A stretch of 5,219 bases of DNA from an uncultured Ruminococcus sp. (lineage in GTDB: Bacteria; Bacillota; Clostridia; Oscillospirales; Acutalibacteraceae). The notes below the pieces were generated by a model. The model had not been told where the DNA came from. It worked only from the letters and a program-made list of their open reading frames with translations, and did no database searches. Of this stretch, positions 2,867 to 5,166 are shown piece after piece. A program made the position numbers and the translations under genes. The stretch spans positions 1 through 5,219 of the forward strand of contig CACYBZ010000151.1 of the NCBI GenBank assembly GCA_902772795.1, read 5' to 3'. Positions within the stretch are counted from its first letter, which is position 1, and every line of letters starts with the position of its first letter.

Positions 2867-2903
2867 TCTCCCAAACTTATTTAAAAAGAATACTGGAAAA
2901 CAG

Positions 2904-2932
2904 TTGAAATTATCGTGAAAATGCAATAAAAT
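2904..2932 (+). promoter_or_regulatory. Near-consensus sigma-A promoter in the gap upstream of purE
   Basis: TTGAAA (2904-2909), an exact 17-base spacer and TAAAAT (2927-2932) match the sigma-A consensus at five of six bases in each hexamer. The expected start is about 2938-2940, exactly where the 5' arm of a perfect 10-bp helix begins. It is the best candidate to drive the leader RNA and, by read-through, purE-purF. Confidence 0.62.
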
Positions 2933-2966
2933 ATAGGCAGTAACAAAACTCACGGAGGTATGCTGT

Positions 2967-3038
2967 ATGACAGATGATATTTGTCGCAAAAGTGATAAGG
3001 CAGACATTACGGGATATCTGCGTTTTGTTACCAGGTGA
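2967..3038 (+). CDS. Possible 23-residue leader peptide or small protein
   Basis: An ATG at 2967 has GGAGG (2954-2958) eight bases upstream and opens a 23-codon frame ending in TGA at 3036-3038. The peptide begins MTDDICRKSDKADITG and ends YLRFVTR; it is charged, has no membrane segment, and I recognise no family. There is no run of one amino acid as in classical biosynthetic leader peptides. The stop lies seven bases before the terminator hairpin, so a ribosome finishing here would cover the 5' arm of the hairpin, and translation would also unwind the P1 helix. That makes a ribosome-controlled attenuator conceivable, but the frame may be fortuitous within a structured RNA. Confidence 0.33.
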   Translation: MTDDICRKSDKADITGYLRFVTR

Positions 3039-3044
3039 AAACAC

Positions 3045-3085
3045 AGGCTGTGGTGTATATTTTACCACAGCCTTTTAGTTGTTTT
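3045..3085 (+). terminator. Intrinsic terminator upstream of purE
   Basis: AGGCTGTGGT (3045-3054) pairs perfectly with ACCACAGCCT (3064-3073) around a 9-base loop, and TTTAGTTGTTTT follows. The 10-bp GC-rich stem is the strongest hairpin in the window; the T-tract is interrupted. AAAACA (3038-3043) and TGTTTT (3080-3085) can extend the base. It would end both the leader transcript and read-through from the SPFH gene, and purE would need antitermination or an unseen promoter. Confidence 0.72.
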
Positions 3086-3171: not shown

Positions 3172-3205
3172 ACATATTGTTGATTGATGAAAGGACTGTT
3201 TGATT

Positions 3206-3703
3206 ATGAAAAAAGTAGCAGTTATTATGGGTAGTGACAGTGATTTTCCTGTTGTTTCAGGGGCAATCAAGACACTGAAATCTTATGATGTTCCCGTTGA
3301 AGTACACGTCATGTCTGCACACCGTACCCCAGAACTGGCTTGTGAATTTTCTGCCAATGCCAGAAAAAACGGCTTCGGTGTTATCATTGCGGCAGCCGGT
3401 AAGGCGGCACATCTGGCAGGTGTTATCGCAGGACATACCACACTTCCCGTTATCGGCATTCCCGTAAAATCTTCCACACTGGACGGTCTTGACGCTTTAC
3501 TCGCTACCGTTCAGATGCCCAAAGGTATTCCCGTAGCTACTGTTGCCATTGACGGAGCTGACAATGCAGGTATTCTTGCCGTACAGATACTTTCATTATC
3601 TGATGATACACTCGCCGAAAAACTCGAAAATCTCAAGAATGAAATGAAAAACGGCGTTATCGAAAAAGACAAAGCCATTCAGAGTAAGGTGGAACAACTG
3701 TGA
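3206..3703 (+). CDS. purE: 5-(carboxyamino)imidazole ribonucleotide mutase PurE
   Basis: The product has 165 residues, normal for class I PurE. The ATG at 3206 is preceded by AAAGGA (3190-3195) at 10 bases; an in-frame TTG two codons upstream is rejected. The enzyme rearranges N5-carboxyaminoimidazole ribonucleotide to 4-carboxyaminoimidazole ribonucleotide in de novo purine synthesis, in the cytoplasm. Visible motifs are GSDSD (9-13) for substrate phosphate/ribose binding and SAHRTP (37-42), which carries the catalytic histidine (39). A glycine-rich AAAGKAAHLAG (62-72) holds the second conserved histidine (69), followed by LPVIGIPV and QMP-G-PVATVAID. Lysine 66 stands where I expect glycine or methionine; the rest is ordinary. 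A purK partner is not in the window. The gene overlaps purF by four bases, implying translational coupling. No clear promoter of its own is visible. Confidence 0.96.
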   Translation: MKKVAVIMGSDSDFPVVSGAIKTLKSYDVPVEVHVMSAHRTPELACEFSANARKNGFGVIIAAAGKAAHLAGVIAGHTTLPVIGIPVKSSTLDGLDALLATVQMPKGIPVATVAIDGADNAGILAVQILSLSDDTLAEKLENLKNEMKNGVIEKDKAIQSKVEQL

Positions 3704-5166
3704 GCGTAACCCAAAACATAACCAACCAATCTTTTTTCTCTGCTGATGACAAACCACAGGAAGAATGTGGCGTATTCGGTATTTATGTCAACGATGAAGA
3801 TATCAATGCCGTTGCGGAAGTATACAGCGGATTATATTCTCTGCAACACCGTGGACAGAACAGTGCAGGAATCTGTGTCAATGACAACGGCACATTCAAG
3901 TGTTGCAAAAACAAAGGACTGATTTCTGAGGCATTTCGTGAAAATGCTCTTGAGGAACTTCCGAACGGTAAAATTGCCATTGGTCATGTCCGTCACTCCT
4001 TGCAAAAATTTGAAGATGATGATTTTGCGTCTGTTCAGCCGTTGCTTATGCGTTATGTCTATGGTTCTCTTGCCATTGCCCATAACGGCGATATCACCAA
4101 CAAAGCCGAACTGCATAAACAACTTGCCGAGGGCGGAGCAATATTCCAGTCCAACAGTAATGCCGAACTGATTTCCTATGTCATTGCCAGTATGCGTCTG
4201 CAAACCGATACCATCGACGATGCTGTCATCAAGGCAGTAGATATGCTGGAGGGTGCTTATTCTCTTGTTATCACCTCACCGAGTAAGCTCATCGCCGTGC
4301 GTGACATGCACGGTTTCCGACCACTCTGTATTGGCAAAATGAAAAACAGCTATATGATTTCTTCTGAAAGCTGTTCTTTTGACAGTCTGGGAGCAGAATT
4401 TATCCGTGACGTTGCTCCGGGAGAAATTATCGTTATAGACAAAGATGGTCTGCACAGCTACACCAATTACTGCGGTAAACCGACAGCAATGTGTATTTTT
4501 GAACAGATTTATGTTTCCCGTCCTGACAGTGTACTTGACGGTCAGAATGTACATAACTTCCGTATGAATGTCGGTAAAGTACTTGCCGAAAAATATCCCG
4601 TTGATGCTGATGTCGTGTGCGGTGTTCCCGACAGCGGTTCAAGCTGTGCGGTAGGTTACTCCCGTTATTCGGGCATTCCCTACGGTATCGCTATCATCAA
4701 AAACAAATACATCGGTCGTACCCTTTCCATGGATAACGACGGTATGAGGAAACGTATTCTGGATATCAAAATCAACGTACTGAAATCCACTGTCGAAGGT
4801 AAACGTGTCATCATTATTGATGACAGTATCGTCCGTGGCGGAACTATGGCACATATCGTTGAACTTCTGAGAAAAGCGGGAGCCAAAGAAATTCATGTCA
4901 GGGTTGCTTCTCCTCCGTTCAGAAACATCTGCTATTACGGTATAAGTCTTCCCCAGAAAGAACACTTTATTGCTAATCAGCTGACACCTGACGAACTTTG
5001 TCGGAACATCGGTGCAGACTCCCTTGAGTTCATCACTGTTGACGAACTGTTAAGCTGTGCCGTTGACTCGCAAATCAATTTCTGTACAGCGTGTTTCTCG
5101 GGTGACTATCCCACAGAAAAACCCACAGAATTTTATGATAAATTCAGCGTAAAAATTGAAGTCTGA
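3700..5166 (+). CDS. purF: Amidophosphoribosyltransferase PurF, divergent glutaminase and flexible loop
   Basis: The product has 488 residues, near the family length. The GTG start overlaps the purE stop (GTGA) and has AAGGTGG (3686-3692) seven bases upstream. PurF makes phosphoribosylamine from PRPP and glutamine, the first committed purine step. The class II glutaminase domain begins at Cys23 (EECGVFG) after a 22-residue propeptide that should be cleaved to expose the nucleophile; LQHRGQ and HNGD (128-131, oxyanion hole) follow. The phosphoribosyltransferase half has GVPDSG, KNKYIGRT (334-341) and the PRPP loop DDSIVRGGT (374-382). Cys265, Cys411, Cys462 and Cys465 match the four [4Fe-4S] ligands of the B. 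subtilis enzyme. Oddities: the usual RY(S/A)T-G glutamine-site segment reads RHSLQK (98-103) with a two-residue insertion, the conserved Asp of the S-D-x-E motif is Asn154, and the flexible loop 340-359 lacks several usual residues. It may be a divergent paralogue. Confidence 0.93.
   Translation: MSVTQNITNQSFFSADDKPQEECGVFGIYVNDEDINAVAEVYSGLYSLQHRGQNSAGICVNDNGTFKCCKNKGLISEAFRENALEELPNGKIAIGHVRHSLQKFEDDDFASVQPLLMRYVYGSLAIAHNGDITNKAELHKQLAEGGAIFQSNSNAELISYVIASMRLQTDTIDDAVIKAVDMLEGAYSLVITSPSKLIAVRDMHGFRPLCIGKMKNSYMISSESCSFDSLGAEFIRDVAPGEIIVIDKDGLHSYTNYCGKPTAMCIFEQIYVSRPDSVLDGQNVHNFRMNVGKVLAEKYPVDADVVCGVPDSGSSCAVGYSRYSGIPYGIAIIKNKYIGRTLSMDNDGMRKRILDIKINVLKSTVEGKRVIIIDDSIVRGGTMAHIVELLRKAGAKEIHVRVASPPFRNICYYGISLPQKEHFIANQLTPDELCRNIGADSLEFITVDELLSCAVDSQINFCTACFSGDYPTEKPTEFYDKFSVKIEV

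Follow-up and report, generated by a model that had tools for sequence, protein, structure and literature searches.

We propose that the leader preceding the purE and purF genes of an uncultured Ruminococcus species acts as an attenuator that depends on translation: a ribosome that completes a short upstream open reading frame (uORF) would mask an intrinsic terminator and thereby give readthrough into the operon (probability about 0.6). The translatable frame is statistically the best supported feature of the leader. Relatives carry the same arrangement of promoter, leader and terminator ahead of purE, and this recurrent leader with its frame is most likely an attenuator of purE, one of the roles suggested in a preliminary description of the window (the whole 5,219-nucleotide stretch of DNA analyzed here). 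The direction of control, from translation to readthrough, is one that we infer.

If the proposal is correct, a race between ribosomes and RNA polymerase controls purine synthesis in many bacteria related to Ruminococcus, and the leader is to purines what the classical attenuator is to pyrimidines, all within a phylum that the accessible part of PMC13323073 classes as one of runaway transcription. The leader would also be a natural reporter for whether transcription–translation coupling occurs in these bacteria. Because what is kept is the frame, the position of its stop and the terminator, not an aptamer or a peptide, it would then represent a type of attenuation that can escape motif searches.

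Layout of the purE leader and its recurrence

The purE gene (3206–3703, forward strand) encodes an AIR carboxylase domain (PF00731, E = 1.5e-62). It is followed on the same strand by a gene at 3700–5166 with glutamine amidotransferase and phosphoribosyltransferase domains (PF13537 and PF00156), which we take to be purF from this domain pair. Directly upstream of the leader lie genes with domain matches to NfeD and Band 7 (SPFH) at 1465–2866. The terminator scan finds none between the stop of this operon (2866) and 3045, so the NfeD–Band 7 transcript may also end at the terminator of the purE leader.

The leader starts at a sigma-70-type promoter on the forward strand (2904–2932), which was described previously, scores 10 of 12 in the scan and recurs in relatives. 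It consists of TTGAAA (2904–2909), a 17-nt spacer and TAAAAT (2927–2932), with the −35 element extending to TTGAAATT; of the bases around it, 37 of 40 (0.925) are the same in the window and in the nearest relative, G002. In many purE leaders, the window (2904–2911) included, the −35 region reads TTG(A/C)A(A/T)TT instead of TTGACA, the promoter score used here slightly favoring the former. As had been noted, no other convincing promoter was seen for purE: the scan gives no site wholly between the leader terminator and the start of purE, and the nearest promoter-like site (3200–3228, 9 of 12) overlaps that start.

Within the leader, a Shine-Dalgarno (SD) site, GGAGG (2954–2958, forward strand), stands 8 nt before an ATG and is invariant in five of five aligned relatives. 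The ATG at 2967 opens a uORF of 23 codons (MTDDICRKSDKADITGYLRFVTR; 2967–3038, forward strand) that ends in TGA (3036–3038). The preliminary description had missed both the SD and the frame, whose extent means that most of the 3′ helix arms discussed below are coding sequence. The uORF stop lies 6 nt before the stem of an intrinsic terminator (3045–3085, forward strand) formed by AGGCTGTGG...CCACAGCCT (3045–3073) and a T-rich tail; its sequence is kept in relatives, and the scan assigns it an 11-bp stem where 10 bp had been reported.

A search of 60 genomes with positions 2895–3085 matched strongly in G002, G005, G003 and G004, four of the five further species of the genus, the G003 contig ending just after GGAGGT, and at chance level in the fifth (G001, best E = 0.1). 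The match to G025, from another genus, lies at the promoter (E = 0.004). Up to E = 1, 47 of the 60 genomes were tallied; beyond the loci just named the matches are short, and those at L006, L008 and L009 proved unrelated on reading. The window's own genome (85% complete) holds no second match over the full leader length. The order promoter, GGAGG, ATG, short frame, terminator and purE is common to G002, G004, G005 and G025, whose uORF peptides are MTVIICRNHDIMTVTGYLYVVTV, MAKIMCGCSSFVMVCGNLAFFTRHKCRLW (with its stop inside the terminator), MVGIVCTTNDMFFHMWVYLRFVTV and MAIFCESMDNVLTQSFYGVFACIHYF.

A broader set of purE upstream regions was taken from 150 genomes sampled from the larger family, 126 of them with a purE match, from which 70 upstreams were used (30 + 40). 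To these were added two genus members (L003 and L005) and the best 80 of at least 568 named contigs, and removal of four duplicates from the 152 left 148, which are a sample and not a census. Fixed rules (promoter score, terminator and a leader of 70–230 nt) were passed by 69 of the 148 and failed by 79. Two loci with purE at a contig edge and no real upstream DNA (L067 and L078) are not among the 69, and the rules missed a partly present layout in L053, where another gene lies between, and in L059. An SD with ATG or GTG occurs within the first 80 nt in 48 of the 69 leaders and is absent from 21; after exclusion of three redundant leaders, 45 remained, the window included, all chosen without regard to the frame. 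The layout is also found in cultured organisms, namely Massilioclostridium coli (L077), Faecalispora jeddahensis (L109) and Hydrogenoanaerobacterium saccharovorans (L137). In the 36 best-fitting leaders, a median of 52 nt (22 to 198) separates the end of the terminator from purE, leaving little room for another promoter.

At two loci, L063 and L144, the terminator upstream of purE lies only 19 and 12 nt past the promoter, with no room for a uORF; this promoter–terminator pair is a reduced form of the leader. In L053, whose upstream is the same as that of L070 (Pseudoruminococcus massiliensis), a leader-like terminator, GGCTGTGG, is located ~390 nt upstream of purE; a further short gene separates the two, as though it had been inserted there.

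Frame, stop position and peptide of the uORF

Of the 45 leaders, 36 have a stop no more than 15 nt from the terminator in the frame set by the start codon, as against 6 and 6 in the other two frames (Fisher p = 2.5e-14). The 36 best-fitting frames have 20–45 codons, with a median of 26. When stop-to-stem distance was determined by one procedure for both sets, the median was 1 nt for 40 uORFs (no terminator was obtained within 75 nt for 5 of the 45 leaders) and 17 nt at 134 ordinary gene ends (p = 1.8e-9), with 97% and 43%, respectively, lying within 15 nt of the stem; the ordinary gene ends are from G029, G025 and G004, background genomes that are not matched to those of the leaders. Judged from these statistics, both the frame and the position of its stop look selected.

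Selection on the peptide was not seen when codon positions were compared between the window and G002: the differences number 9, 9 and 7 at the three positions in the uORF versus 4, 1 and 55 in purE, and 13 of 24 peptide positions, stop included, are identical. No conserved peptide was found among the loci, where the uORF products differ, and the arrest peptide that a ribosome-arrest leader would conserve is absent by the same two comparisons. Pooled over the 45 uORFs, as opposed to counted as runs per leader, the composition has no single dominant residue.

Folding of the leader RNA

The best fold of the leader is one long hairpin (−30.2 kcal/mol) that pairs 2940–2947 with 3024–3031, 2952–2954 with 3021–3023, 2956–2961 with 3014–3019 and 2963–2967 with 3008–3012. 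The outer helix, with arms at 2940–2947 and 3024–3031 on the forward strand, belongs to a 10-bp match (2940–2949/3022–3031) to which attention had been drawn earlier. The match is real and its outer eight pairs have probabilities of 0.97–1.00, but the inner two reach only 0.42 and 0.28. Among 5000 dinucleotide shuffles of 2933–3044, 9 contain a perfect 10-bp pair of arms separated by 30 nt or more; the match is rare, as supposed, although the original guess of ~1% was too high. Further in, a stretch at 2952–2967 that covers the SD and the A of the ATG pairs with an anti-SD arm at 3008–3023, within the last third of the uORF, in both the best fold and an RNAalifold consensus (all on the forward strand). 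GGAGG is accordingly paired inside the long hairpin (2952–2961 with 3014–3023). The three-way junction drawn in the preliminary description consists of pairs that are all complementary, but at −19.1 kcal/mol it is 11 worse than the best fold, and with a probability of 0.00–0.02 for its P2 and P3 pairs it was rejected.

None of 200 shuffles is as stable as the window leader with its terminator (z = −5.46), and the leader alone has z = −3.49 (60 shuffles). Among 38 leaders selected for a stop near the terminator, the mean z is −1.58, with 19 below −1.5. In these 38, leader 5′ ends pair better with the 3′ ends of their own uORFs than with those of others (−19.0 versus −16.4 kcal/mol, p = 0.002), although their own pairing ranks in the top 5% of swaps for just 6. 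In a set of 44 leaders, SD pairing is 0.739 compared with 0.668 in SD-keeping shuffles (p = 0.02) and lies above the shuffles in 28. Thus, burial of the SD modestly exceeds that in shuffles.

The outer helix is absent from the RNAalifold consensus of five close relatives, which keeps the SD helix and the terminator, and we do not claim the outer helix as general. Over the same five, 79.8% of cells are paired in this register versus 39–51% in slid registers. As many paired cells are found in 64 of 500 shuffles, as many pairs changed on both sides in 18, a covariation score as high in 254, and values as high on two other measures in 89 and 380; by these shuffles the covariation and pair-count support is weak. 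By eye and uncounted, G025 has GTGAAT/ATTCAC at the place of GTAACA/TGTTAC in the window. Leaders of different genera fold differently, and the SD-burying hairpin, a computed structure, is best supported in the genus of the window.

Mechanism and alternative readings

By default, the SD hairpin is predicted to close, so that the uORF stays unread, the terminator forms and transcription stops early. Alternatively, a ribosome would load on the uORF before the anti-SD stretch has been copied, read to the stop beside the terminator, cover its first arm and block it, after which RNA polymerase would read on into purE–purF. The outcome would then depend on how fast polymerase moves relative to ribosome loading. 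The SD and its partner are about 50–65 nt apart, so the SD should be open only briefly after its synthesis. A tentative extension, which we put forward with considerable reserve, is that the leader serves as a one-shot kinetic timer, purE being transcribed only if a ribosome loads before polymerase copies ~60 nt more, and that polymerase speed, hence nucleotide supply, is in this way read without a ligand-binding RNA.

A trp-type attenuator or a terminating riboswitch requires a leader stretch able to pair with a terminator arm. Such complementarity was not seen in the 38 leaders with a stop near the terminator, which pair with their own terminator arm at −12.1 kcal/mol and with swapped arms at −13.1 (p = 0.02 and 0.01); the last 60 nt alone give −10.5 and −11.3 (p = 0.06 and 0.02). 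The pairing requisite for an amino-acid attenuator of the trp/his type was thus not found, being weaker than in swaps. With no antiterminator found, the terminator would most simply be disarmed by the ribosome itself, through direct blocking.

Blocking would still require the trailing ribosome to arrive in time. The accessible part of PMC13323073 classes Bacillota as runaway, their ribosomes lagging too far behind to block terminators, and a short stop-to-terminator spacing itself serves as a proxy for uncoupling in that of PMC7858274. The uORF stops lie closer to terminators than do those of ordinary genes in G029, G025 and G004, three such genomes. These considerations cut both ways, and for this reason our confidence in a blocking attenuator stays at about 0.6.

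The same device could respond to another signal. It is conceivable, if rather doubtful, that ribosome supply and initiation rate, not polymerase speed, set readthrough and that purE follows growth rate or translation capacity; the probability we attach to this lies inside that of the attenuator as a whole, the blocking step being common to both. An SD-burying hairpin would make ribosome loading the gate, and the uORF and linker are not purine-rich, leaving no evident special pause tract for purine shortage. The purine fraction is 0.482 in the uORFs versus 0.535 in ORFs longer than 300 aa. No purine enrichment is seen in the last 20 nt ahead of the terminator (0.540 versus 0.523, p = 0.48), with A up (0.327 versus 0.238, p = 0.001) and G down relative to a reference other than ordinary terminators. 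These values speak against a simple purine-NTP pause sensor, and a purine-rich pause tract, as the counterpart of the tract in pyrBI, was rejected on this basis. However, the supply version would provide no negative feedback by purines, and the present data do not tell it from the version based on polymerase speed.

It is unlikely that the element is a separate small gene or RNA acting elsewhere, with a terminator that simply ends this small unit and the NfeD–Band 7 operon. Promoter, SD, frame and terminator do form a complete unit, but the peptides differ between loci without codon-position bias, and no promoter would then be visible for purE. The unit was also collected at purE. In 786 kb of G029, G025 and G004 there are 259 intergenic terminators, 11 of which have an upstream SD and start and a downstream gene; counted for each of the three frames, a stop falls within 15 nt in 4, 2 and 1 of these 11. 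The set of four comprises the G025 and G004 purE leaders, a ribosomal-protein gene, presumably that of L34, and one weak 12-codon frame, the only non-purE candidate besides the ribosomal-protein gene. The uORF–terminator layout is thus near-specific to purE in these 786 kb of three genomes, with the qualification that a scan that missed the purE leader of G029 has limited sensitivity. The element stays beside purE while its interior changes, which does not support an independent small RNA as its main role, as had earlier been suggested.

Nor is it probable that a protein antiterminator or readthrough repressor binds the terminator arm or the leader, the uORF being secondary. The motif GCTGYG is present in the 5′ arm of the terminator in 26 of the 45 leaders and in 0 of 134 ordinary terminators from the three unmatched background genomes, which exceeds what pairing alone demands. 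This conservation could mark a protein-binding site, but common descent could also preserve it, and the frame would be unexplained.

An undescribed class of metabolite-binding riboswitch, in which a purine-pathway compound binds the leader fold and shifts the terminator, had been suggested before and is now decidedly improbable. Its appeal lies in the stable leader fold, the shared GCTGYG and a ZMP/ZTP riboswitch in the corresponding slot of another locus (L140:1854–1941), which ends 60 nt before purE. The latter came from an Rfam check of 20 purE loci, selected mainly because no uORF leader had been detected in them; in L149 the check also gave a purine riboswitch, ~1.8 kb upstream of purE. 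The L140 case suggests that this control point is filled by different devices in different loci. However, the window gave no Rfam match at E up to 10 apart from two weak ones elsewhere, and 20 leader loci gave none at gathering thresholds, including to the ZMP/ZTP (RF01750) and purine (RF00167) riboswitches. Furthermore, leaders of different genera fold differently, their complementarity to the terminator is not above that of swaps, and a riboswitch would leave the open frame and the place of its stop unexplained.

Relation to known attenuators and a repeated upstream box

The proposed attenuator resembles in form that of E. coli pyrBI (pyrL), where, in the accessible part of PMC5021804, a close trailing ribosome prevents the terminator. 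In both, a nucleotide-synthesis operon is preceded by an intrinsic terminator to which a short frame extends, the open translatable frame being the one found in 36 of the 45 leaders as against 6 and 6. Similar to pyrBI, no leader antiterminator would be needed, own pairing being weaker here than swaps. The two differ in pathway, purine for the window and pyrimidine for pyrBI, in the Clostridia-type host of the window and in the uORF's own SD, which in the window would be buried by a hairpin. The pyrBI leader has a U-rich tract, whereas the window leader type is without a matching purine-rich tract. Growth-rate control of E. coli ampC comes from an attenuator whose terminator is prevented when a ribosome loads on a very short leader frame. 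The purE leader may be analogous in that loading on its frame would prevent the terminator, although ampC is not a nucleotide operon.

The uORF candidates of the Breaker laboratory (ilvB, fthC and hflX motifs) likewise have an SD, a start, an in-frame stop and a terminator before a metabolic gene, but the ilvB motif has codon runs and an antiterminator (accessible parts of PMC11109978 and PMC8632094). The main texts of PMC11109978, PMC8632094 and PMC2965389, taken without supplements, contain 0 occurrences of 'purE'. A search of titles and abstracts, in which 'purE' also matches the word 'pure' and outside which most subscription papers fall, gave none on a uORF attenuator before purE. In the published work searched such an attenuator was not found; it would be kin to known translation-coupled attenuators.

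Upstream of the leader promoter, a box TA(T/C/G)ACAAAAT is present at 14 of the 69 purE leader loci (for example L042, L046, L048, L055, L061 and L175), compared with 0.2 in shuffles, two of the carriers being near-duplicates; it was not found in the window upstream of 2904. The best-scoring boxes lie ~73–76 and 30–33 nt before the −35 hexamer, a clustering that is not independent of the matrix, which was made from exact matches. The boxes are 42 nt apart, equal to four helical turns, and they look like a putative tandem operator.
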